From: Albidovulum inexpectatum
Lineage (GTDB): Bacteria; Pseudomonadota; Alphaproteobacteria; Rhodobacterales; Rhodobacteraceae
Assembly: GCF_002927635.1 (NCBI RefSeq)
Contig: NZ_PRDS01000009.1
Span: 1-64,000 of the forward strand
Direction: 5' to 3'
DNA: 64,000 nt
Shown piece after piece: positions 5,668-56,064 of the stretch (its first letter is position 1; each line of letters starts with the position of its first letter). The notes under the pieces were generated by a model, which was not told the DNA's origin, searched no databases, and worked only from the letters and a program-made list of their open reading frames with translations. The position numbers and the translations under genes are program-made.

Positions 5668-5979
5668 TCATTCCACCACCACCGCCGTGCCCGAGGCCGA
5701 AACCATCAGCATGTTGTTGATGACCTCGTAGTCCAGATCCACGCCCACGACGGCATTCGCGCCCATTTCGGCGGCGCGCTCTTCCATTTCGGCCAATGCC
5801 GTGCGACGGGCCTTGCCCAGCTCGCGTTCATAGGCGGCCGAACGGCCACCCACAATGTCGCGCACCTGGGCAAAGAGGTCACGGAAGATGTTCGCGCCCA
5901 GAATGGCCTCGCCGGTCACGATCCCCTTGTAGGCGGTGATCCGGCGCCCTTCGATCGAAGGCGTCGTGGTCGTGATCAT
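5668..5979 (-). CDS. YbjQ/UPF0145-like 'heavy-metal-binding' domain protein
   Basis: A 103-residue protein with the conserved features of the YbjQ (UPF0145) family: an N-terminal [13 protein letters not shown], the central [18 protein letters not shown] and the C-terminal [12 protein letters not shown]. The family forms a small alpha/beta oligomer of unknown function; despite its domain name there is no cysteine-rich metal site in this sequence. Its ATG overlaps the sufB stop as ATGA, so it is co-translated with sufB. The tight coupling hints at a role in Fe-S assembly or metal handling, which remains an inference. Confidence 0.85.
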
Positions 5980-7508
5980 CCCACCGATCCTTCCAGCGAA
6001 ATCGCCACCAGGCTTTGCGCTTCCATCGCGAACTCCATCGGCAGCGCCTGCAGGACCTCGCGGCAGAAGCCGTTCACGACCAGCGCGACGGCCTCTTCCT
6101 CGCCCATCCCGCGCGAGCGGCAGTAGAACAGCTGGTCCTCGTCCACCTTCGACGTGGTCGCTTCGTGCTCGACACGCGAGGAATTGTTCTTGACCTCGAT
6201 ATAGGGGACCGTATGCGCCCCGCACTTGTCGCCGATCAGCAGGCTGTCGCACTGGGTATAGTTGCGGCTGCCCGTGGCCTTGGGGTGAATGGACACCAGC
6301 CCCCGATAGGTGTTCTGCGCATGGCCCGCGCTGATCCCCTTGGACACGATCCGCGAGCGGGTGTTCTTGCCCAGATGGATCATCTTGGTGCCCGTATCGG
6401 CCTGCTGCCAGTTGTTGGTGATCGCGATCGAATAGAATTCGCCGATCGAATCGTCGCCACGCAGGATGCAGCTGGGATATTTCCAGGTGATCGCCGATCC
6501 GGTCTCGACCTGGGTCCACATCACCTTGGACCGCGGCCCGCGGCAATCGGCACGCTTGGTGACGAAGTTGTAGATGCCGCCCTTGCCTTCCTCGTCGCCG
6601 GGGAACCAGTTCTGGACGGTGGAATACTTCACCTCGGCATCGTCCAGGACGACGATCTCGACCACGGCCGCGTGCAGCTGATGCGTGTCGCGCTTGGGCG
6701 CGGTGCAGCCTTCCAGATAGCTGACATAGGCGCCCTTGTCGGCGATGATCAGCGTGCGTTCGAACTGGCCGGTATTTTCCGCGTTGATGCGGAAATAGGT
6801 GGACAGCTCCATCGGGCAGCGCACCCCTTCCGGCACATAGACAAAGGACCCATCCGAGAAGACCGCCGAATTGAGCGTGGCAAAGAAGTTGTCCGAAGGC
6901 GGCACGACACTGCCCAGGTATTTCCGGACCAGATCCGGATAGTCCCGGATCGCCTCGGAGATCGAGCAGAAGATCACGCCTGCCTTCTTCAGCTCCTCCT
7001 TGAAGGTGGTGCCGACGCTGACTGAATCGAACACGGCATCGACGGCCACCTTGCGCCCGTCGGCCGGGGCGCTCTCGGACCCTTCGACGCCGGCCAGGAT
7101 CATCTGCTCGCGCAGGGGAATGCCCAGCTTTTCATAGGTCTCAAGCAGCTTCGGATCGACCTCGTCCAGCGATTTCGGCCGCTTGGTCAGGCTCTTGGGC
7201 TTGGCATAATAGTACTGCGACTGGTAGTCGATCGGCGGGTATTTCAGCATCGCCCAATGCGGCTCTTCCATCTGCAGCCACCGGCGATATGCGGCCAGCC
7301 GCCATTCCGTCATCCAGTCCGGTTCGCCGTTCTTCTCGGAAATCAGGCGCACGATGTCCTCGTTCAGGCCCATCGGCGCGTATTCCGTCTCGATGTCGGT
7401 TTCCCAACCGTGCTTGTAGGCCCCCATGTTCCTGACGGTCTCGACCGTCTCGCGATCGACGCCCTCGCGAACCTCGAGCTCTTCACCTGTGTCCATGATC
7501 TCAGCCAT
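5976..7508 (-). CDS. sufB: Fe-S cluster assembly scaffold SufB
   Basis: SufB carries the site on which the nascent cluster is built in SufBC2D. The 510-residue protein shows the family block [19 protein letters not shown], with the conserved cysteine, and the C-terminal [18 protein letters not shown] chose the ATG at 7508 ([10 protein letters not shown]) because AAAGGA lies 9 nt upstream; the longer frame upstream runs into the desulfurase gene. It follows that gene by 32 bp and overlaps the YbjQ-like gene by 4 bp. Confidence 0.97.
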
Positions 7509-32902: not shown

Positions 32903-32995
32903 CGGAATTTTCTGCTTGTCTGGTGCCCCCAGAGTGGGGCGGAATTCTTAATTCAGACAACGCGATAGGCCGTCCCGCGCGGAATTTCTGCGACA
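32903..32995. repeat. Three spaced GGAATT motifs at the possible prophage end
   Basis: CGGAATTTTCTGC (from 32903), CGGAATTCTTAATTC (from 32940) and CGGAATTTCTGCG (from 32980) recur with 37- and 40-bp spacing. Between the first two is a nested inverted repeat (TTGTCTG...CAGACAA enclosing GCCCC...GGGGC, 32916-32960). Repeated short motifs of this kind occur as transposase-binding sites at the ends of transposable phages. Here the function is an inference from position. Confidence 0.4.
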
Positions 32996-37170: not shown

Positions 37171-40100
37171 CTAGATCACGATTGTGGCGGCCAGCGGATA
37201 CCCGCGACCGACGGCATTCGACAATTGATAGATCCGCACGTCCAGCGTATCCCCGCGCGCCAGGGCCGCGCCGAAATCCGCCACCTGCTGGGCCTGCGTG
37301 TAGACGACACTCGCCGTCGTCGCGGTCAAAACCCGCTTCACAGCAGCACCCTGCAGGATCTCGACCTCGTAGGCCTCGGGCGTATCCAGCAGAGGAACCT
37401 CGACGCTGTTCCAGCTGTCAGCGGCCAGTGCCCGCGATCTCCTGATCCAGCTGATCGTCAGATCGCCCTGGCTGTGAGGCGCGCGCCAGACCTGCACGGG
37501 ATGGACGGGCGAGAACGGCCGCAGCCCGACGCCGCCCGGCGTGAACGAAAATTCGTCATAGGCGTCCGACGATACCGGCTCGCTGGCCGGACCGATCCGC
37601 CAGTTCCACGGAATGCCGATATCCGTCTCGGCGATCGGCACGGGCACCACGGCCTCGTCCAGCAGGACCGCCACCGCGCCCGCGGGCGTCGGATTGCCCA
37701 TCGCATGTTCCGTCCCGCGCTGCCCGCGCAGGAGCCGGGCCAGGCGATACTGGTTTGTCCCGATCAGCGTTGCCTCGCCGAACTGCACGACCTCCCAGAC
37801 GCCGTCCGCGCTCTGGATCGCAAGCGCGTTCGCCCCGCCGAGGACCGACAGGTCCGTCGCGCTGGTCAACTGGCCCTCCTCGAGTGTCAGCACGATCTCG
37901 TTGGCGAGATCCCAGCGCGATGTCGGGCCGGCAGGCAGGGACTGGTCCAGGTATCCGATCACGGCGGGCGCGTCGATCGTCGTGACCAGCTCCCAGCCGT
38001 CGGTGGATGCGCTGCGATAGAGAGCGAGCGAACCGGGCCACGGTCGCGCCCAGCCGAACACCAACGGGCGGTGGGCGGCGTAATCCTCGCTCAGCTGCGG
38101 CATATCCATGATCGCGGCGATCGGCGGCCGTGCCACCGGCAGGCTCTGCACCCGCGCCTCGCGGGCCTCGCCTGGCGGACGATCATAGACCCAACGGTCG
38201 TGCCGCACGAGCTCAAGCGCGCGGTCCTCGCCGTCGGCCGTCGACACCACGCGCCAGGGCAGGACGCGGCCGTCATGTTCGATCTCGATCACGTCGGCAG
38301 GGTCGACAGCCAGCCGCGACGGCGGCAGGCGCAGGGTGGCGGTCTCCCGGCCGATCCACGTCTCGGCCAGCGCGCGGCGCACGCGCTTCTCGGCCTCCTC
38401 TGGCGGCACGGCGACCGGATGCGTCTCCGTCGTGACCCGCGCGGAATCGACCGTGATCCGCCGCGCCTCGACGACGGCGTAATCGTAATCCTCGTCGGCG
38501 CGCGCCAGCTGCCACTGGATCGCCTGCGGCAGCTCTGTCTCCTGCGCCCGCGTGAACTCGATCACGTCGCCCTCGCCAGGCTCGACCAGGTCGTCATGGC
38601 CTAGCCTGGCCACAGGCTCGCGCCCGCGCATGACGAAGCGGATCACGCCGCCGGTTTCCACCGCGTCGAACCCGAAATGCCGCGCAAGCGTCTCGATCGA
38701 CGCCCGCGGACTTTCCAGCGCGGAAATCACGTAGCCGTCTACCGCGCCCCACAGGCCGGAAACGTCCACGCGATCGGCAGGCAGGCCCGCGCGCAGGCAC
38801 AGATGGCGCACCAGCGCGGGCAGCGAGGCCGCGCCCAGGCGCCCCGTCAGCCAAGGACCCAGCCGCCACCGGTCCGCATCCGCCCAGCGATCCTCGAGCG
38901 TCGGAAACCACGGATAGGGACGCACGTCCCACCGCGCTACAACGGTTTCGTCCGTGTCGATCATCCGCCCGCCATAGACGGAGGATGTCGGATTGTGCGC
39001 CGGGTCGCTCCAGTATCCCAGGACAGCGTCCAGGTAGGCGCGCTGGATCTGGTCGTCGCGCCAGCCGCGCGAGTACCGCGGCAACGGCATCGATGTCGGC
39101 GACACGTGCAGGTCAGGCTCGTTCGATCCCCGGTCCACGGCCGGGCAGGACACCTCCGTGAAGCGGATCGGCTTCGACTCCGGCACCCATGCCGTCGGCG
39201 TTCCGCTCTCGACACCGCCCGGACGCGCATGGTGCGGGTTCGACCACCAGTTCACGATGTCCTTCTGCCGGAACACCCAGGGCTTCCCGCCGGGATCGGT
39301 GATCGGGGTGCGGATCTGCGCATCGCGGTCGGCCTGGCTCGCGTAATACCAGTCAAAGCCCTCGCCGCCATCGATGTTCGCCTGCAGATAGGCCCGGTCG
39401 TAGATCGACGGCCAGCCAGCCTGCGCATCCGCGTGCTCGAACCCGTCGCGCCAATCCGACAGCGGCGCGCGCCAGTTGATACCAACGAAGTCGATATTCG
39501 CATCGGCCCACAACGGGTCCAGCGGAAACAGGACGTCGCCGCTGCCATCGGTCGGCACGTAAGCGCCGTATTCGTTCCAGTCGGCCGCATAGCCGATCTT
39601 GACAGACGGGCCCAGGATCGAACGGACGTCGGCCGCAAGCTGGATCAGCTGCTGCACCGCCGGATGCGCGCCCGTGTCGTCGCGCACGATCGTCAGCCCG
39701 CGCATTCCGGATCCGATCAGGAACGTGTCCACGCCGCCCGCCGCCGCGCAGAGATGCGCGTAGTGCAGGATGAAGCGCCTGTACCCCCAATCACTTGACG
39801 GGCCGGCATAGGTGACCGCCGATCCCGACCGCGTGAAATCCGATGGCTGGGCCGCGCCGAAAAACGTCGCGATCTGGCTGCCCGCGTTGGACGTCTTGTC
39901 CGCCGTGTTCGGATACCCGGGCGCCTGGCTGACGGTGATCAGGCGCGCATCGGGATATGGCGGCTGCGTGCCGTAGAACGTGTCATTCGCGGTCGAATAT
40001 GGCGTCGGGCGGAACGCCGGAACATCCATCAGCAGCTTGGGCGCCAGCGTGACACGCAGCCCGCGCGACTGCAGGTCCGCGATCGCATCGATCACGGATG

Positions 40101-41280
40101 CGTCGTTCGGCGTTCCGCCATAGGCTGGCAGGCCGTCAATCTGGCTCACGATCCGCGCGTTCCAGCGATGCAGGCCATCCACGCGCCACTCGCGGCTCGT
40201 GATGATCTCGTCGTCCGACACGGCCGGCTTGATCTTGGTGTTCCAGCACCGCAGGTCGTCTGCAATCCACGCCACTGGCAGCGTGACTGCCTGCAACCCT
40301 TCGGCAGCCGCCTCCAGCGCGTCCATGCTGGTGACGTAGTCGGCCACGGTGCCGCCAGCAGAGACATTCACATAGTTCTTTTTCTTCTTGGCCTCCTGAA
40401 TCTTTTTTACAGCCTGGATAAACCCTAACGCCGTGTAGGCAGACTGCATCTGATCCCCGAACGGATCGTTCCGTGCCCTCAGCAGATCCGCGAGGGCCAG
40501 AAATTCTACTTCCGATCCTGAACCTAATATCCTGTTGAGCCTTGAAAGAAGGCCACCGCTGACGTAGGGCTTGGCGTCTACAGGCTTCGGATCATAGGCG
40601 AACTCCCCGTGCCCGGGACCGATCGTCACGGACGGGGCGCCCAGATCGCCATCAACACCGGCAAACACCTCGAAGGTCAGCTGAGGAATGCGGTTGCCGT
40701 AATCCGTGAGATTGAGCTCCTCGAACACCACGTAGGCCGTGCCGCGATAGGCCGGGGCATTCCCAGCCCCCATCTTCGCCTCGATGAACGGATCCGGCAG
40801 CTGAGCCTCGTCGCCCGGATACCAGCGCAGCGTGACCTTGGATGTGTCGAGCAGCTCGCCATCCGCCCAGATGCGGCCGATGCCCCTGATCGGACCATCG
40901 CACAGCGCGACGGCGAAAGACGCGTAATAGGTATAGGTCGTTGTCTTGACCTTCGGGCCGCCACCCTTGCCGCCAGATTTCTTGGTCTTCTTTTCCTCGC
41001 GGAAGTCGGTCGCCCAGATCACGTTGCCGCCGATCCGCATACGTCCGTAGACCCGCGGGATCACCGCGCCCTCGGTCGACGACGTGAGGCGGAGGCTATC
41101 GAGCCGCGCGCCCTCGATTCGCTGCGCCGGGGCAAGAGACGACAGAATCATGCTGTCGACGACCGAGCCGATGGCCGATCCGATCATGCCGCCGATTGCA
41201 GCGCCGGAAAGGCCGAGGATCGTCCCGCCGAACGCGGCGCCGATCGCGCTGCCAGCGGCCCCCAGAATGAGCGTCCCCAT
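37171..41280 (-). CDS. Tail tip / host-specificity protein with GTA TIM-barrel domain
   Basis: A 1369-residue central tail-tip protein homologous to Rhodobacter GTA gp15. The N-terminus has a small-residue hydrophobic stretch (GAAGSAIGAAFGGTILGLSG). A glycoside-hydrolase-like TIM-barrel region lies around residues 400-730 (DFVGINWRAPLSDWRDG, GGKPWVFRQKDIVNWW). The phage_tail_3-like domains follow from about 770, with fibronectin-like modules at the C-terminus. It makes the baseplate hub that contacts the cell. Its ATG overlaps the NlpC/P60 stop as TGATG. Confidence 0.92.
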   Translation of the reverse strand: MGTLILGAAGSAIGAAFGGTILGLSGAAIGGMIGSAIGSVVDSMILSSLAPAQRIEGARLDSLRLTSSTEGAVIPRVYGRMRIGGNVIWATDFREEKKTKKSGGKGGGPKVKTTTYTYYASFAVALCDGPIRGIGRIWADGELLDTSKVTLRWYPGDEAQLPDPFIEAKMGAGNAPAYRGTAYVVFEELNLTDYGNRIPQLTFEVFAGVDGDLGAPSVTIGPGHGEFAYDPKPVDAKPYVSGGLLSRLNRILGSGSEVEFLALADLLRARNDPFGDQMQSAYTALGFIQAVKKIQEAKKKKNYVNVSAGGTVADYVTSMDALEAAAEGLQAVTLPVAWIADDLRCWNTKIKPAVSDDEIITSREWRVDGLHRWNARIVSQIDGLPAYGGTPNDASVIDAIADLQSRGLRVTLAPKLLMDVPAFRPTPYSTANDTFYGTQPPYPDARLITVSQAPGYPNTADKTSNAGSQIATFFGAAQPSDFTRSGSAVTYAGPSSDWGYRRFILHYAHLCAAAGGVDTFLIGSGMRGLTIVRDDTGAHPAVQQLIQLAADVRSILGPSVKIGYAADWNEYGAYVPTDGSGDVLFPLDPLWADANIDFVGINWRAPLSDWRDGFEHADAQAGWPSIYDRAYLQANIDGGEGFDWYYASQADRDAQIRTPITDPGGKPWVFRQKDIVNWWSNPHHARPGGVESGTPTAWVPESKPIRFTEVSCPAVDRGSNEPDLHVSPTSMPLPRYSRGWRDDQIQRAYLDAVLGYWSDPAHNPTSSVYGGRMIDTDETVVARWDVRPYPWFPTLEDRWADADRWRLGPWLTGRLGAASLPALVRHLCLRAGLPADRVDVSGLWGAVDGYVISALESPRASIETLARHFGFDAVETGGVIRFVMRGREPVARLGHDDLVEPGEGDVIEFTRAQETELPQAIQWQLARADEDYDYAVVEARRITVDSARVTTETHPVAVPPEEAEKRVRRALAETWIGRETATLRLPPSRLAVDPADVIEIEHDGRVLPWRVVSTADGEDRALELVRHDRWVYDRPPGEAREARVQSLPVARPPIAAIMDMPQLSEDYAAHRPLVFGWARPWPGSLALYRSASTDGWELVTTIDAPAVIGYLDQSLPAGPTSRWDLANEIVLTLEEGQLTSATDLSVLGGANALAIQSADGVWEVVQFGEATLIGTNQYRLARLLRGQRGTEHAMGNPTPAGAVAVLLDEAVVPVPIAETDIGIPWNWRIGPASEPVSSDAYDEFSFTPGGVGLRPFSPVHPVQVWRAPHSQGDLTISWIRRSRALAADSWNSVEVPLLDTPEAYEVEILQGAAVKRVLTATTASVVYTQAQQVADFGAALARGDTLDVRIYQLSNAVGRGYPLAATIVI

Positions 41281-44172: not shown

Positions 44173-44569
44173 CCCACACCCCCCTGACCAGCGCGGCCAC
44201 GTCGACCGCCGTGTTGACCCACACGACGACAGACACGGCAGCAACGAACGAATAGACGGCCCACGCACTTGCCGCGGCGTAGAGTGCGTGCCACGCCAGG
44301 AACAGCGCCACGCCGGTCAGGCCACCGACGCCAACCAGCCGCACGACCGGCGACCAGCGCCAGCGGCCGTTGATCCGGCACCCGATTGCCAGCACCAAGC
44401 TCGACAGGATCACGGCGATCCCCGTCGCGCGCGACTGCTGGTAATCCAGCCCGGCCCAGCCCAGCCCCGGCGAGCCCGGCCACAGCGCCACAACCGCGCC
44501 CCAGTAGAGCGCCGCAAGCCCCAGGAATATCTCGCCCGCGCGCGGGTGCTGCGTGATCCCCAGCCTCAT
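44156..44569 (-). CDS. Phage membrane protein, four segments
   Basis: A 137-residue protein with four hydrophobic segments (about 13-30, 49-64, 76-98 and 101-122). Its ATG overlaps the DUF2460 stop as ATGA. It lies at the head of the lysis cassette, so a holin or antiholin role is possible. No recognised family. Confidence 0.7.
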   Translation of the reverse strand: MRLGITQHPRAGEIFLGLAALYWGAVVALWPGSPGLGWAGLDYQQSRATGIAVILSSLVLAIGCRINGRWRWSPVVRLVGVGGLTGVALFLAWHALYAAASAWAVYSFVAAVSVVVWVNTAVDVAALVRGVWDAGRR

Positions 44570-45189
44570 CGCCGCACCTCCACCAGCGGGATCGACGGGA
44601 TCGACCCCAGCCGCTCGATATCCAGCGTCAGGTCCAGCGTGTCCGTATCGAACCGCACCGGCACGTCGAACTCGAACCCGGCGGTGATCACGGCGCCAGA
44701 CGCGGGCGCAGAGGTGAACGTCACGACACCGGTCGTCGTGTCGACCGACCAGCCGGATGCCGTGGCTCCGTCCACGGCCACCGTTACCGTGCCCGCGACC
44801 GGCTTGGTGATCACCCGCGTCCATGTGCGGCTGCCGGACGTGTACCGCTTGACCAGCTGGAACGCCTTGGTCGACCCGTCGCCCGTGCCGATCTGCTGGT
44901 CGGTGGCCGCTGGCGTCTGCGACGGCAGGCAGGACTTGTAATCGGCCCAGTCCTTGAACCGGAACCCGTACAGCCGCCCGTTCCGCGCCTCGAAGAAGGC
45001 CACCACCGCCGCCAGGTCATCCGCATGCCGGATGCCGTAGGACACGTCATAGCGCCGGCGGCTGTTCGCCCAGCTGGCGTTGCGCTCCTCGTCGCCCGAA
45101 GCCAGCTCCACGACCTGCGTGCGCCGCTCGGGCCCGCCGCGCGCGCCGCGGCTGATCGCGTCGGGGAAACGTACCTCGTCGAACGCCAT
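44566..45189 (-). CDS. DUF2460 tail protein (GTA gp12-like)
   Basis: A 207-residue DUF2460 protein, the homolog of GTA gp12, the distal tail protein at the tube-tip junction. Signature segments are FDEVRFPDAISRGARGGPER, RNGRLYGFRFKDWADYKS and the C-terminal LDLTLDIERLGSIPSIPLVEV. Its ATG overlaps the tape-measure stop as TGATG. In GTAs gp12 and gp13 are adjacent; here six lysis-type genes separate them. Confidence 0.93.
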   Translation of the reverse strand: MAFDEVRFPDAISRGARGGPERRTQVVELASGDEERNASWANSRRRYDVSYGIRHADDLAAVVAFFEARNGRLYGFRFKDWADYKSCLPSQTPAATDQQIGTGDGSTKAFQLVKRYTSGSRTWTRVITKPVAGTVTVAVDGATASGWSVDTTTGVVTFTSAPASGAVITAGFEFDVPVRFDTDTLDLTLDIERLGSIPSIPLVEVRR

Positions 45190-47522
45190 CACATCCCCCT
45201 CCGCCCGATCGAGATCGCCCGGCTGATGTCCGCCGCGATCTGCGTGCGCGACTTGCGGAAGCTCTCGGCATCCCGCGCATTGATCGTGATGTTCACCGCA
45301 GGCTGACCGCCGCTCCCCATCTGGGCCACCTCGCGGCGGCTCAGCACCCGCTCGCCGCGCTGCAGGATCGCGGGCACCTCGTCAGGCCTCAGCCCCGCCC
45401 AGCCGCCGCTGTGCATGCGCGGCGCGCTCAGGAACACGCGCGGGTCCACCCGCCGCGTGGCGGGAACGGAACCGACGACGCCGCCGGAATGATGGACGGC
45501 TGCCCCGCCGCCAATCCATCCCGTCAGGGACGAGATGAAACCGCCCAGAAGCCCTGATCCACCGCCCTGCGTCGCGAACATGCCCTCGTTGAACAGCAAT
45601 GCCTCGAACGCGGCCCTCTGGATCACGCGGATCAGGTTCGAGAATGCGTCCTCAAGGCTGGTGACATCGCTCAGGGCGTCCAGAACGCCGGATTTGAGGC
45701 TCTCGGCGAACTGATCGGCCCCGCGCGAGGCTCCGTCCAGGCCCTGCTTCACGCGCTCCAGGACGTCCGCTGCAACGTCCTTGCTGACGATCCCCTGACG
45801 AACGGCGTCGTTCACGATGCGCTCGGCCTCCGCGTATCGCTGCTGCGCCGCATAGGCGTCGTCCACGCTGGCGCGAAGACGCTCGAACGCATCGCGGGTC
45901 TTGTCCGTATCCCGGATCGTCGCTGCCGATGCGGAACGAGACACGGACCTGCCGACAGAACGCCCGCCACGGTTCGACGAAACCAGCGCCTGCTGGTTCC
46001 GCGCCGCCTCCTCTGCCGCAGCCACCGTCTCGGCAAGCCGCTGGTCGATCTGCGACCGCAGGATCGGATCGAATCCGGAATAGTCGCCAACGCGCGACTT
46101 GAACCGCTGTTCGGCCAATGCCCCTGCAAGCTTGACCGGATCGTCCTTGAATTGCACGCGCAGCTGGCTCTCTCGCGCCGCATCCGACGCCGCGGCAGCG
46201 GCATTTGCAGCCGCATTCCAGGCGCGCTCCATCTCGCCGGCCAGCGCCGAGGCCTGCGCGGCAGCAGCCGCGATGCCGCCCGCAATGTCCTCGGTCGCCA
46301 GCCCGCGCGCAGCGTCCCATGCCTCCATCAGTGACTGCTTCAGCTCGTCGCTGATCTGCATTTCCTCGACACGCGCGGCGAAGGCGGCCCGCGCCTGCTC
46401 CACGCGCAGTCTCTCGACCTGGACGCTGTCCTCGCCGTAGAGCTTGATCGCGGCGCGGATCTGCGCCTCGTCGTTCAGGGTGGCCAGCATCGCCTCTGCG
46501 TCCTGGCGCGCCTTCTCGGCCGAGCGCGAGTGCCCTTCCATGGCGGCGTTGACCCGAACCACCTCGATGGCCATCTCGCGCGCGGCCCGGGCTGCTTCGC
46601 GCGTCGTCTCCGGCAGATCGCGCGTGCGCTCCAGAACCCTGTCGAAGGCCTCGTTGACCCGACCGACGGCATCGGCGATCTGATCCGGCCCCTGGGCACC
46701 GGCAAGGTCATCAAGCGCGGCGGCGAGATCGCGTGCCTCCTGTTCCGTCAGGCCGAAATCCTCGCGCAGGTTGGACAGGATGCGCCGACGGACGAACGCC
46801 TGGTCGTCCGGGTGCTCCCCAAGCGTCAGCGCGTTGTCGAGCACCTGCAGCTGGCGGACATAACCGGTGATGTCTTCCAGCTCTGTGCGCATCGCCTGCG
46901 CCGCGCCGACAATGTTGTTCGTGGCGTCCAGCATCGCCAGATCCGCCATTGCGGAATAGAGCTCGCGGACCTGAGCGGCCGAGTCTCCGAAATCGATCCG
47001 GAGTTCCGACAACGGGGCAACCGACAGTTCGCGCAGCTTCTCCATCTCGCGGATTGTGTCGCGCAGACCGTCCAGCTCCTCGGCCAGAGACTTTGCTTCT
47101 TCCCTGCTCGACGTGAACCACTGCACAAGGGCCGCGCCAGCAGCGATCGACCCAAGCGTGATCAGGTTCATCGGCGACAGCATGGACATGAGCGCCTGCC
47201 CAAGGGCACGCACCGCACCAGCTGCTCCCATCGGGCCGAGAACCTGCGTGATCTGGGTGCCCTGCTGGATGGCCAGCATGAGCGGGCTTTGCCCGGCCGC
47301 GAGCATCTGCCCGATGTCGTTGAACTGGGCCGTCAGGTTCGCCACGGACCCCGCGGCCAGCTGCATATTCTCCTTGGTCTGCTTGCCCCCTTCGGCGGCC
47401 TTCTTGCCGGACGCACGGGCCTTCTCGCCCATCCGCTCGACGGACTTCGCGGTTTCGTCGATTTCCTTGCGTGCCGCGCCAGTCTCCGCGTCGACGCGCA
47501 GTCCTACTCGCAGGTCAGCCAT
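45189..47522 (-). CDS. Tail tape measure protein
   Basis: A 777-residue tape measure. N-terminal MADLRVGLRVDAETGAARKE is followed by a hydrophobic region (about 95-130), long helical/coiled-coil stretches rich in Ala, Glu and Arg (about 170-590), and a Gly-rich C-terminal part with GGGSGLLGGFISSLTGW. It sets tail length in a siphovirus. GGGAGG stands 5 nt before the ATG, and the start overlaps the end of the frameshifted chaperone frame by 8 bp, matching the lambda G-T-H layout. Confidence 0.93.
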   Translation of the reverse strand: MADLRVGLRVDAETGAARKEIDETAKSVERMGEKARASGKKAAEGGKQTKENMQLAAGSVANLTAQFNDIGQMLAAGQSPLMLAIQQGTQITQVLGPMGAAGAVRALGQALMSMLSPMNLITLGSIAAGAALVQWFTSSREEAKSLAEELDGLRDTIREMEKLRELSVAPLSELRIDFGDSAAQVRELYSAMADLAMLDATNNIVGAAQAMRTELEDITGYVRQLQVLDNALTLGEHPDDQAFVRRRILSNLREDFGLTEQEARDLAAALDDLAGAQGPDQIADAVGRVNEAFDRVLERTRDLPETTREAARAAREMAIEVVRVNAAMEGHSRSAEKARQDAEAMLATLNDEAQIRAAIKLYGEDSVQVERLRVEQARAAFAARVEEMQISDELKQSLMEAWDAARGLATEDIAGGIAAAAAQASALAGEMERAWNAAANAAAAASDAARESQLRVQFKDDPVKLAGALAEQRFKSRVGDYSGFDPILRSQIDQRLAETVAAAEEAARNQQALVSSNRGGRSVGRSVSRSASAATIRDTDKTRDAFERLRASVDDAYAAQQRYAEAERIVNDAVRQGIVSKDVAADVLERVKQGLDGASRGADQFAESLKSGVLDALSDVTSLEDAFSNLIRVIQRAAFEALLFNEGMFATQGGGSGLLGGFISSLTGWIGGGAAVHHSGGVVGSVPATRRVDPRVFLSAPRMHSGGWAGLRPDEVPAILQRGERVLSRREVAQMGSGGQPAVNITINARDAESFRKSRTQIAADISRAISIGRRGM

Positions 47523-48146
47523 CGGCACCTCCCGCCAGCCCAAGCGCCGACGCTGCGGTGTCGATGCCGTCGAGATCACCGACGCTTTCCGAGCCGCCGA
47601 TCACGCGGCGCAGGTCGTCCTGGGAACCCCAGACCGCCATCCGCACGGTGATCAGCGTCTTGCGCTCGGTCATCTCATCAAGCTCCACATGCGCGTCGAC
47701 CAGGGCCCGCACTGCCGCGAGCGTCAGGCCGAGGATTTCGTCGAGGCTGTGCCCGTTCCGGACGAGGTAGGCGAAGACCCCTGCCCAGCTGTCACTTCCG
47801 CCACCGTCCGCATCGCCTCCGCCACCGCCGGGGCGAGGCGTTGGGCGAAAAAATCCGAGTTCACCCGCAACACGACCGACAGCAGGCGCACGAGGTCGTC
47901 GGGGTGACGATCCTCGAGGAAGCCGCGTTCGACGTCGGTAGCGGCGATCACGAGGTCGATGACGTGTTCGGACATCCGCAGCGCGACGGCCGCCGCGTCC
48001 TGCCCTGAATTGATCGCCTCGATGATCGGCGCGACGGCCCGCCCGAAAGCGGGCAGCTGACGCACCCGGATCGGCTCGACGGCGATCTCTCGGTCGCCGA
48101 TCGTCACGACTTCGCGCGGCGGAACGAAGGCGTCGAGATCGCTCAT
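47515..48146 (-). CDS. Tail assembly chaperone with programmed -1 frameshift (G/G-T type)
   Basis: The zero-frame product (47724-48146) is 140 residues, starting MSDLDAFVPPREVVTIGDRE. A T_TTT_TTC heptamer in the reading phase occurs at codons 99-100. After a -1 slip the ribosome would read a Gly-rich linker and then a second domain (WAGVFAYLVRNGHSLDEILG...), stopping at 47515 for a 210-residue fusion. The second frame has no good start of its own. This is the layout of lambda gpG/gpGT, both needed to load the tape measure. Location directly upstream of the tape measure fits. The slip itself is inferred. Confidence 0.85.
47847..47853 (-). other. -1 ribosomal slippery heptamer T_TTT_TTC
   Basis: The heptamer sits in phase as X_XXY_YYZ within GAT TTT TTC. 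Downstream zero frame ends 124 bp later, while the -1 frame stays open for 110 codons to 47515. It is the only T6 run seen in this gene. Confidence 0.75.
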
Positions 48147-49102
48147 GCCGTCACCACCGTCAGCTCGTCATCGCCAGACTGCGGCAACAGCGTCAGCTCG
48201 GTGCCCAGCAGCACCGTGCCCTCGTAATCGACCACGGACGGGGTGCGGCGCTGGACCGCGGGCGCGAACAGGCGCACGATGTTGCCCGCCTGCGATCCGT
48301 GCTGGAAGCCCAGCGAGGTCAGCACGATGTTGCGGATGTCTGTCAGCCACGCGACCTCGTCGCCCGCGGCCAGCTCGACGGACAGGTTTCCCTGAACCGC
48401 GCGATCCGTGATCTCCGCCCGCTCGGAGCCGAGCAGAAGGATGTGGTTGACCGTCGTGTTCAGGTCGATGCGGAATTCCCGCATGTTCACGGCCGTCCCG
48501 CCGCTCAGCGTTCCGCTGGCCGGAACATAGCTCGAGCCGATCAACAGGCTGGAATTTGCCGCCGGCCGCACCGTGTTCGGCGTCTGCCATCCGGCATAGG
48601 ACCCGGACGCGCTGGCGGCGACGGATCCACCGTCGAGGCCGGTGAACTCGAAGCGCACGATCGGCCGGGAATAGGCGTCGAGCGTCCAGGTCGCCGTGCC
48701 GCGCGCGCCAAGCGCGAGATGGGTCACGCCGTCGACCACGTAGCGCAGGGCGAGGCTTTCGAACCCGTCCGAGATCGGCGTGTATTCGACATGCGATCCC
48801 GTGACCACGGTCTCGGCAAAGCCGCAGGCGCGCAAGAGCTTCCCCCACGCCGGCGGGGCGTCGGCCGTGCCGCTGCCGGCAACCTCGACGTCGAAGGCGA
48901 TCTCGACGCGACGCGCGCGGATAAGGCTTTCGCTCGCCCCAAGCGTCGGGCGCAGGAGATCGCGCGACACCTCGTCCTGGACAAGGTTGACGGACGGGTT
49001 GGAGATCAGGATCGCATCCGAGCCGCCCCATCCGCCCGGGTCGGTTCCGTACGCGGTTTCCAGCTTGGCCTGGATGACGGTCTTGCGCGTCAGACGGCTC
49101 AT
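48143..49102 (-). CDS. Major tail tube protein
   Basis: A 319-residue phage tail tube protein. The N-terminus (SRLTRKTVIQAKLETAYGTDP) is typical of tail tube proteins in Mu-like and other siphophages. Two beta-rich domains of similar size (about 30-160 and 165-319) follow. Its ATG overlaps the small upstream gene stop as ATGA, and its stop overlaps the chaperone ATG. Confidence 0.85.
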   Translation of the reverse strand: MSRLTRKTVIQAKLETAYGTDPGGWGGSDAILISNPSVNLVQDEVSRDLLRPTLGASESLIRARRVEIAFDVEVAGSGTADAPPAWGKLLRACGFAETVVTGSHVEYTPISDGFESLALRYVVDGVTHLALGARGTATWTLDAYSRPIVRFEFTGLDGGSVAASASGSYAGWQTPNTVRPAANSSLLIGSSYVPASGTLSGGTAVNMREFRIDLNTTVNHILLLGSERAEITDRAVQGNLSVELAAGDEVAWLTDIRNIVLTSLGFQHGSQAGNIVRLFAPAVQRRTPSVVDYEGTVLLGTELTLLPQSGDDELTVVTA

Positions 49103-53114: not shown

Positions 53115-53259
53115 ACAACTTTATCAAGCTATATTAATGACTTAGATGTGTTTCGCCGGTGCGGCGGTACAGATGATGCGGTGTCATGGCCGCGCCACGG
53201 ATGGATTGACCTTTCGCGCTTGGCGGGCAATCGTCCAGCATCATGATCGGGGAGAGTGC

Positions 53260-56064
53260 ATGAGACTCAGTTGGCCTGAAGTCAGGGCGCGCGCGCAGCA
53301 ATTTGCCGATTCTTGGCGCGGCGAATCCTATGAGAAGGGCGAGGCCCAATCGTTCTGGAATGATTTCTTTCAGGTGTTCGGCGTTCCGCGGCGCCGTGTG
53401 GCACAGTTCGAGCGTCAGGTGCAAAAACTCGGCGGCGGCACTGGGTTCATTGACCTGTTCTGGAAGGGCGTCATGCTCGCGGAACAAAAAAGCGCCGGCC
53501 GTGATCTGGCGCAGGCACGTCAGCAGGCATTGGACTATCTCGACGGCCTCAAGGACTCCGAGTTGCCACGCTACATCGTGCTCTCTGACTTCCAGACCTT
53601 CGAGATGCTTGACCTCGAGACGAGCGAAGAAACGCAGTTCTCGCTTGAGCAATTGCCCGATCATGTCGAGAAATTCGGCTTCATCCTCGGGGTTACACCG
53701 ACCACCTTCCGGGATGAAGACCCTGTCAACCTTGAAGCCGCCGAGCTTGTGGGAAGACTCCACGATGCGCTCAAGGATGCGGGCTATTCGGGTCACGATC
53801 TTGAGCGCTTTCTGGTTCGGATCGCCTTCTGCCTCTTTGCAGACGATACGGGCATCTTCGAGCGCAACCTGTTCGTTGACACGCTCGAGTCGCGCACCCG
53901 CGAGGATGGGTCCGATACTGGGCCGCTGCTTGCCCAGATATTCCAGGTTCTCAATACGCCGGAAGACCTCCGTCCGCGTAATCTTCCGGCCGACATTGCC
54001 GCTTTTCCATACGTCAACGGCGAACTCTTCGCCGAGAGTCTCCGCATCCCTTCCTTCGATGGCGACATGCGTGAGAAACTTCTCGAAGCGGCGCGCTTCG
54101 ACTGGTCCGGGATCTCGCCTGCGATCTTCGGGGCGCTGTTCCAGTCGGTCATGGACCCGCAGGCCCGCCGGGCGCTGGGGGCACATTACACGTCCGAGAA
54201 GAACATCCTGAAGGTCATCGGACCATTGTTCCTTGATGATCTTCGCGACGAATTCGAGCGCATCCGTGTCCTCAAGACAGGACGTCGGAAGCGACTGGAG
54301 GAGTTCCACGCCCGCTTGGCATCCATGACCTTCTTCGACCCGGCCTGCGGTTGCGGCAACTTCCTCGTCATCGCCTATCGAGAGCTGCGCCAGCTCGAGA
54401 TCGACCTTCTGAAGGAGCTGCAGGCGGAGCGCGAGGATGCGCGCACTCTGGAGATGGACGTCCAGTTCATGTCCCGGATCGACGTTGATCAGTTCTACGG
54501 CATTGAGATCGAGGAGTTTCCGGCCCGCATCGCCGAGACCGCGCTGTGGATGATGGATCACATCATGAACGACCGGCTCGGGCGCGAATTCGGGAAGTCT
54601 TTCGCGCGAATTCCGCTGAAGAAGAGCCCGAACATTCGCCACGCCGACGCGCTGGAAACTGACTGGGATGACCTTCTGCCGGCCGAAAGGTGCAACTTCC
54701 TGTTGGGCAACCCGCCCTTCCTGGGCGCCAAGGTCCAGACCCCCGCGCAGCGCGCCCAGGTGCGGCGGATCGCCCGGCTGGGCGGCTCGGGCGGCACGCT
54801 CGATTTTGTGGCGGCATGGTTCATCAAGGCCGCGGAATACGCCGCAAAGGCCGATAAAGCCGGCGCCGCCCCGCCCCGCATCGGCTTCGTCGCCACCTCC
54901 TCAATCTGCCAGGGCGAACAGGTTGCCCAGCTCTGGCCGATCCTGTTCGGGCGCGGGGGCGTCGAAATCTCATTCGCCCACCGCCCGTTCAAATGGGGCA
55001 ACGAGGCGCGCGGCGTGGCGCAGGTGCATGTGGTGATCGTCGGGCTCGACCGGCGCGGGCGCGCGCCGAAGGACAAGCGGCTGTTCCTCTATCCCAGCAT
55101 CACCGCCGACCCGCAGGAGGTCAGCGTGCCGGTCATCACCGCCTACCTCACCGACGGACGGCGGCTGGCCGATCCGCATGTCGTCGTGAAGGAGGAGGCG
55201 CGACCCATCAACGGGATGCCGTCCATCATCTCGGGCTCACAGCCGATCGATGACGGGCACTACATCCTCAGCGAGGAGGAATACCGCGAACTCGAGGCCT
55301 CCAAACCGGCCGAGGCGCGCTGGTTCCGCCCCTTCATCGGCGCGCAGGAATTCCTCAACGGCGGGCGGCGATGGATCGTGCATCCCGACTCGATCCCGCC
55401 CGCGGAACTGCGCCGTCTGCCGGGCATCCTCGAACGAATTCGAAAGGTTCGAGAATTCCGATCGAGAAGCAAAAGAAAGCAGACGCTTGAGAAGGCGCAA
55501 ACCCCAGGCGATTTCAATGTCACCGTCATCCCTGACCGCCCTTTCCTCGTGCTGCCCGAGGTGAGTTCGGAACGCCGCGACATCATGCCCATCGGCTGGC
55601 TGGAGCCGCCGGTGATCCCGAGCAACAAGCTTCGGATACTCCCGGATGCCACCTTGGCCCATTTCGCGCTGCTGACCTCTGCCATGCACATGGCCTGGAT
55701 GCGGCTTGTGACCGGGCGGCTCAAGAGCGATTACCAATATGGTATCGGAATTGTATACAATACCTTTCCGCTGCCGCCGGGCGGGCTGGAAACGCTCGCA
55801 ACCCCGCGCATCGAGTCGCTGGCGCAGGCGGTGCTCGACGCCCGCGCCGCGCATCCCCAGGCCACGCTGGCCGACCTTTACGACCCCGACGCCATGCCCG
55901 CCGACCTGCGCGCCGCCCACCGCGCGCTGGACCGCGCAATCGACCGCCTCTACCGCCGGCAGGGCTTCGACACCGAGATTGAACGGGCCGAGCATCTGCT
56001 GGCGCTTTACGAAGCCGCCGCCGCGACCCTCATCAGGCGGCCACGGCGTTCCAGAAGTCGTTGA
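53260..56064 (+). CDS. MmeI-like Type IIL restriction-modification enzyme
   Basis: A 934-residue single-chain endonuclease-methyltransferase. The N-terminal PD-ExK nuclease motif is IDLFWKGVMLAEQKS (D-x9-E-x-K). A helical connector leads to the adenine methyltransferase with motif I FFDPACGCGNFL (about 357-368) and motif IV GNPPF (about 485). The C-terminal 350 residues hold the target-recognition domain. Such enzymes methylate one strand of a non-palindromic site and cut about 20 bp away. GGGGAG precedes the ATG. The gene is antisense to the virion operon, between gpF and the prohead protease. All catalytic motifs look intact. Confidence 0.9.
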   Translation: MRLSWPEVRARAQQFADSWRGESYEKGEAQSFWNDFFQVFGVPRRRVAQFERQVQKLGGGTGFIDLFWKGVMLAEQKSAGRDLAQARQQALDYLDGLKDSELPRYIVLSDFQTFEMLDLETSEETQFSLEQLPDHVEKFGFILGVTPTTFRDEDPVNLEAAELVGRLHDALKDAGYSGHDLERFLVRIAFCLFADDTGIFERNLFVDTLESRTREDGSDTGPLLAQIFQVLNTPEDLRPRNLPADIAAFPYVNGELFAESLRIPSFDGDMREKLLEAARFDWSGISPAIFGALFQSVMDPQARRALGAHYTSEKNILKVIGPLFLDDLRDEFERIRVLKTGRRKRLEEFHARLASMTFFDPACGCGNFLVIAYRELRQLEIDLLKELQAEREDARTLEMDVQFMSRIDVDQFYGIEIEEFPARIAETALWMMDHIMNDRLGREFGKSFARIPLKKSPNIRHADALETDWDDLLPAERCNFLLGNPPFLGAKVQTPAQRAQVRRIARLGGSGGTLDFVAAWFIKAAEYAAKADKAGAAPPRIGFVATSSICQGEQVAQLWPILFGRGGVEISFAHRPFKWGNEARGVAQVHVVIVGLDRRGRAPKDKRLFLYPSITADPQEVSVPVITAYLTDGRRLADPHVVVKEEARPINGMPSIISGSQPIDDGHYILSEEEYRELEASKPAEARWFRPFIGAQEFLNGGRRWIVHPDSIPPAELRRLPGILERIRKVREFRSRSKRKQTLEKAQTPGDFNVTVIPDRPFLVLPEVSSERRDIMPIGWLEPPVIPSNKLRILPDATLAHFALLTSAMHMAWMRLVTGRLKSDYQYGIGIVYNTFPLPPGGLETLATPRIESLAQAVLDARAAHPQATLADLYDPDAMPADLRAAHRALDRAIDRLYRRQGFDTEIERAEHLLALYEAAAATLIRRPRRSRSR

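Follow-up and report, generated by a model that had tools for sequence, protein, structure and literature searches.

The chaperone locus of the prophage

The window, by which we mean the whole 64,000-nucleotide stretch of Albidovulum inexpectatum DNA analysed here, carries a prophage whose tail region includes the minus-strand features listed in Table 1. Between the tube (Phage_tube_2) and tape measure (TMP_2) genes, the location expected of a chaperone gene of the lambda G/GT type, lies an open reading frame that matches phrog_1442 ('tail assembly chaperone') over its residues 1-134. A second frame, -1 relative to the first, overlaps it and has no usable start, again as expected of that type. 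The earlier note had read here an in-phase T_TTT_TTC, a -1 frame that remains open for 110 codons and overlaps the tape measure start by 8 bp, and a fusion of 210 residues, and the sequence agrees throughout: TTTTTTC occurs once in 47400-48146, the first base of the heptamer is position 3 of a codon, which places T_TTT_TTC in phase, and the predicted fusion is 210 aa long (100 + 110).

Table 1. Features of the chaperone locus in the prophage tail region (window coordinates).
Feature	Position	Strand	Basis or remark
Tail tube protein	48143..49102	-	Pfam Phage_tube_2, E 7.2e-16; directly upstream of the chaperone ORF
Zero-frame tail assembly chaperone ORF, gpG-like, 140 aa	47724..48146	-	Coordinates; phrog_1442, E 4.2e-26
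Possible internal Shine-Dalgarno-like element GGGTGA	47861..47866	-	7 nt before the heptamer; suggestive only
Slippery heptamer T_TTT_TTC, in phase (GAT TTT TTC)	47847..47853	-	Sequence; kind kept in 106 of 108 loci
T-like domain read in the -1 frame (110 codons, stop at 47517-47515)	47515..47847	-	Predicted 210-aa fusion
Gly/Pro-rich linker, residues 1-20 of the -1 product	47788..47847	-	Sequence; pLDDT block means 48 and 51
Tape measure protein	45189..47522	-	Pfam TMP_2, E 4.6e-15; ATG at 47522
DUF2460 tail protein, GTA-type downstream module	44566..45192	-	Pfam PF09343, E 5.2e-93

Going upstream from the slip, the -1 frame also meets no stop before 48153 and is thus open over the whole length of the gene. 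Many overlapping-frame ORFs of at least 80 aa occur in this GC-rich DNA. Because such frames are common, the openness of the -1 frame is weak evidence in itself, and we therefore rested the case on relatives.

Family and relatives of the chaperone

Close relatives of this chaperone are rare. A protein search matched three of 148 genomes, its own included, and one of the three (L003, E 2.3e-4) was rejected as a chance match inside a long unrelated frame; a family model search matched two of 390 genomes of the order and nine of 398 of the phylum, again with its own genome counted. A scan of genome contigs found no relative. Searches of phages by tblastn gave no match at E 0.01 with the prophage protein and none at E 1 with the protein of one homologue (G060), and the prophage protein matched nothing in Pfam, DUF6631 included, or in an NCBIfam search. 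The protein of another homologue (G500) joins the family to the chaperones of Pseudomonas Mu-like siphophages, with matches in 152 phage records at E up to 1 (best about 1e-7), three of which were fetched for comparison.

Among the 32 family members that we aligned, phrog_1442 matches 31 at E up to 0.01, a figure that is partly circular, since several of these members were found with the phrog_1442 model, and Pfam DUF6631 (PF20336) matches the N-domain in 27 at E up to 0.1. None of the papers searched mentions DUF6631, a Pfam family of unknown function; by context and by the PHROG match we identify it as a frameshifted tail assembly chaperone. The N-domain of the prophage protein is modelled with a mean pLDDT of 88, and its first Foldseek match in the PDB is the HK97 chaperone 2ob9, a weak one (E 0.31, TM 0.48); in a second structural comparison 2ob9 (Z 4.8) was tied for first place with 3klu (Z 4.9), and the identity to 2ob9 is 12-14%.

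Conservation of the slippery heptamer

We compared 108 loci, one of which (L004) is the same prophage as found in IMG/VR (100% identity). Left out of this number were the window itself (L001, L005, L013), duplicates of L004 and L012 (L011 and L029), L003 and L007. The loci are a sample, one scan having supplied the best 80 of its 158 relatives, all 80 of which were examined. That scan used six peptides, FEVNADFF among them, and because the peptide patterns are degenerate in codons it favours the peptide and not a choice of codon. Heptamers were scored by a script that took A or T as the second triplet, looked from 50 codons past the start of the match onward and within the open -1 frame, and chose the second wherever two heptamers overlapped by three bases.

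By this measure 106 of the 108 loci have a tandem-slip heptamer that is in phase and falls in an open -1 frame, as TTTTTTC in 88, TTTTTTT in 12, CCCTTTC in four and TTTTTTG in two; the 61 loci that are distinct by their last 40 residues divide 46, 9, 4 and 2 in the same order. A conserved N..F(F/L) or NGPF stretch ends in the heptamer at 104 of these 106 loci; in L002 and L021 the heptamer is displaced by a few codons. Conservation of the heptamer and of both frames in relatives was one of the checks that the earlier note had put forward, and it is what we found; a combination that it had named as counting against the idea, a lost heptamer with a second frame that has its own start, was seen in none of the 106 heptamer-bearing loci. 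As for the two loci counted without a heptamer, L030 (43% identity over 36 residues) looks spurious. L014, from genome G742, is a genuine relative. It carries a T run where the slip would be, and its second domain lies outside the usual frame relation, so that the length of the homopolymer has been miscalled or else the shift itself has changed.

Codon choice at the site is also uniform. Across the 61 distinct loci the first Phe of the slip is TTT in 57 of 57 cases, against 36 of 185 Phe codons elsewhere in the same domains, and all 50 Asp codons before the slip are GAT, compared with 175 of 422 elsewhere, biases for which binomial p-values overstate the case as the loci are related. Within the prophage, TTT makes up 18 of the 186 Phe codons and GAT 120 of the 360 Asp codons of 12 other genes, so that GAT TTT would be expected at a D-F-F about 3% of the time. 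The same 12 genes (5272 codons) contain nine in-phase XXXYYYZ heptamers, of which none is T_TTT_TTC and one is A_AAA_AAG. This A_AAA_AAG lies at window position ~40408 on the minus strand, inside the large tail gene at 37171-41280.

A run of T invites the thought that the same fusion might arise through slippage of RNA polymerase instead of the ribosome: 102 of the 106 heptamer-bearing loci have six or more T in succession at the slip, and PMC3711429 describes poly-AT as slippery for both machines. The A. inexpectatum run, however, is only T6, and the four CCCTTTC loci, in which no run there exceeds three bases, still allow the X_XXY_YYZ tandem slip and have their second frame in the -1 relation. 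Since CCCTTTC retains the re-pairing of both tRNAs with no homopolymer, the ribosomal reading is favoured, and we regard transcriptional slippage as very unlikely.

Sequences around the slip site

Folding gave no support to a downstream stimulatory RNA structure, which we rejected as a candidate. At the prophage site the z-score was +0.86 for a 77-nt fold and -1.27 for a 38-nt fold, and over the 61 distinct loci no consistent structure appeared downstream, the mean z being -0.34 for 45 nt (eight loci below -1.5) and -0.20 for 70 nt (six below -1.5).

Upstream, the GGGTGA of the prophage has a duplex energy of -8.4 kcal/mol, at quantile 0.26 of its synonymous variants, and a Shine-Dalgarno-like stretch, GGTGAA, occupies the same place in 38 of the 61 loci. 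The mean duplex energy upstream of the slip is -10.1, compared with -8.4 under synonymous randomisation and -5.3 in 907 control windows. Taken locus by locus, none of the 61 reaches a quantile of 0.1 or less, and for this reason the element is kept as suggestive only. It is conceivable, though we would sooner doubt it, that the whole phrog_1442/DUF6631 family uses a tandem slip of tRNA-Phe stimulated by an internal Shine-Dalgarno-like element (GAGGTGA or GGGTGA, about 7 nt upstream) and not by downstream structure. If this were true, the family would share a structure-free -1 signal, kept in GC-rich genomes by selection of rare TTT codons.

The -1 frame as protein

The -1 products align across the 32 members, as they also do in an alignment of seven; three divergent loci (L020, L021, L022), whose -1 products are short or dissimilar-looking, were left out of the larger alignment. 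In a model of the -1 product, residues 21-60 reach block-mean pLDDT values of 94-97. The preceding segment is the Gly-rich linker to which attention had already been drawn (RPTPRPGGGGGDADGGGSDS): its composition is plain in the sequence, it is modelled with low confidence (pLDDT ~50), and in the alignment of -1 products this region varies among relatives.

Substitutions in 78 close pairs of relatives follow codon positions in the -1 frame. Differences at positions 1, 2 and 3 number 295, 196 and 933 in the part read only in the -1 frame, which resembles the N-domain counted in its own frame (426, 225 and 1039). The overlap shows a more even spread (331, 160 and 252), as expected under dual coding. 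This test covers relatives, the A. inexpectatum sequence itself being without a close relative in the set, and L019 was dropped before the codon-position and identity comparisons on account of its overlong -1 frame. Judged from these sequence patterns, the -1 frame is under selection as protein in the relatives. Identities compared among the zero-frame tail, the -1 product and the N-domain failed to distinguish the frames, and this comparison was set aside. The -1 products match PHROGs that have no assigned function (phrog_13355 in 21 of 32 members, phrog_14432 in 18, phrog_8022 in nine and phrog_10839 in two), and in a fold search of a viral library the -1 domain matched nothing at E 0.001 or below.

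Could the -1 domain instead be produced without any frameshift, by initiation at an internal codon or by reinitiation? The -1 frame does offer possible starts (GTG at 47712 and 47688, ATG at 47673 and 47640), and in a GTA-like cluster of the same genome (contig C3, L123) the ORF that comes after a different chaperone-like ORF (5926-6246) has an ATG of its own at 6243. All four starts, however, lie within the predicted folded part, where helices run from residue 21, so that each would cut the domain, and a heptamer conserved together with its codons across relatives also speaks against this route, to which we give hardly any weight. The earlier claim that the second domain lacks a start of its own thus stands for the domain as a whole, ATG and GTG codons being present inside its predicted folded part. 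Least credible is that the -1 frame is merely a chance opening and the heptamer a coincidence, since against the abundance of long overlapping frames in this DNA and an opening that spans the entire gene stand alignable -1 products, an excess of third-position substitutions in relatives and the tandem-slip heptamer at nearly every locus.

A predicted G/GT-type frameshift

We conclude from the sequence that translation of the tail assembly chaperone gene of this prophage very probably involves programmed -1 ribosomal frameshifting of the lambda G/GT type. The lambda G/GT arrangement proposed in the earlier note is supported by the conserved heptamer, which recurs in relatives as an in-phase X_XXY_YYZ sequence within the overlap, by selection on -1 coding in relatives, and by the match to a chaperone family. 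Most ribosomes would finish the 140-aa gpG-like chaperone. In a minority, the tRNA-Phe molecules that read TTT in the P site and TTC in the A site would slip one base back at T_TTT_TTC, and 110 more codons would be read to give a 210-aa gpGT-like fusion. By analogy with lambda, the shared N-domain may serve to bind the tape measure protein, and recruitment of tail tube subunits may fall to the -1 domain. The sequences show the layout of the locus, its family, a heptamer conserved in kind and place, and selection on -1 coding in relatives; that ribosomes do shift here, how efficiently, and what both products do, we infer.

Gene callers limited to ORFs in a single frame would overlook the conserved second domain. 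The comparison also links both halves of a gpG/gpGT chaperone to existing families, the first half to DUF6631 and the second to PHROGs 13355, 14432, 8022 and 10839, whose function is unassigned.

Other features of the prophage and of the genome

The portal and MuF proteins of the prophage are Mu-like. Fifteen bases of the 3' end of a tRNA-Thr gene are found as an exact repeat at 32920-32934 of the window and at 15731-15745 of L116 (C9 ~75730-75744), where a tyrosine integrase gene (L116 14631-15593) lies beside it. These repeats are likely attachment sites, and the prophage therefore probably integrates site-specifically despite its Mu-like portal and MuF proteins. On the plus strand at 53146-56064, opposite to the head-gene module that surrounds it and between the MuF-like gene and the prohead protease, is a complete-looking MmeI-type restriction-modification gene with all five MmeI Pfam domains, which we take to be of Type IIL.

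In two further DUF2460-bearing tail modules of this genome, on C15 (L121 ~4678) and C17 (L122 ~4300), the ORF that precedes the tape measure gene contains A_AAA_AAC in phase, and a -1 ORF then runs into the tape measure start. These are likely frameshift sites of another heptamer type, in ORFs that we call chaperones by their position only.

Comparison with known systems

The description of this tail as GTA-like, made in the earlier note, holds for the genes downstream of the tape measure only, which by Pfam include DUF2460 and a phiJL001 Gp84/BR0599-type hub protein, types that we presume to be shared with gene transfer agents; the chaperone belongs instead to a family found in Pseudomonas Mu-like siphophages. 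Gene transfer agent chaperone pairs, presumably those named g10/g10.1, have a second ORF with its own ATG and no A/T slip heptamer, and the prophage chaperone, which has the slip, does not match this type. In the C3 cluster described above, the only in-phase heptamer of the first ORF is of the G/C type, GGGCCCC.

RcapMu, a Mu-like siphophage of Rhodobacter, bears a GenBank note of a 'potential -1 frameshift' in its gene 49 region, shortly before the tape measure gene. Its sequence looks unrelated, however, the next ORF is DUF1799, and the in-phase candidate at the annotated place is a G_GGA_AAC near the stop. PMC8601537 implies that such signals are present in most of the Rhodobacter capsulatus phages described there, and PMC3711429 gives 7% frameshifting for one phage tail assembly chaperone cluster. 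For the Mu-like phage KS10, in contrast, no such site was found by the authors of PMC2628397, and on that account the signal is not universal among Mu-like phages.

In lambda the slippery heptamer is G GGA AAG. According to PMC5009743, both gpG and the minority product gpGT attach to the tape measure protein, and it is through the T part that the major tail protein is bound. The A. inexpectatum locus has like overlapping -1 ORFs before the tape measure gene, and a minority fusion would be expected by comparison with the lambda system (PMC5009743); the likeness rests on gene arrangement, the fusion here being a prediction.

A close parallel is offered by the Pseudomonas Mu-like siphophages of the D3112 type (PaMx73, MP48 and relatives), whose core ORFs 35/36 (gpG/gpGT) belong to the same chaperone family by sequence, by way of the G500 protein, with the same -1 shift and the same place before the tape measure gene. 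For PaMx73, PMC4378225 proposes T TTT TTC as the slippery site of core ORF 35, where a -1 shift is needed to join ORF 36. MP48 has the same T TTT TTC at the homologous Phe-Phe, and its GenBank record annotates a two-piece gpGT. The three fetched Pseudomonas phages share 18-21% identity with the N-domain of the prophage; MP48 differs in having also an overlapping G_GGT_TTT, and the A. inexpectatum prophage in its tyrosine integrase and GTA-type downstream tail genes. Since T TTT TTC has already been proposed for the Pseudomonas homologues and gpGT is annotated in GenBank, the frameshifted chaperone is not new in kind, and what is known about frameshifting itself is unchanged by the finding; the A. 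inexpectatum locus is a new, divergent example.
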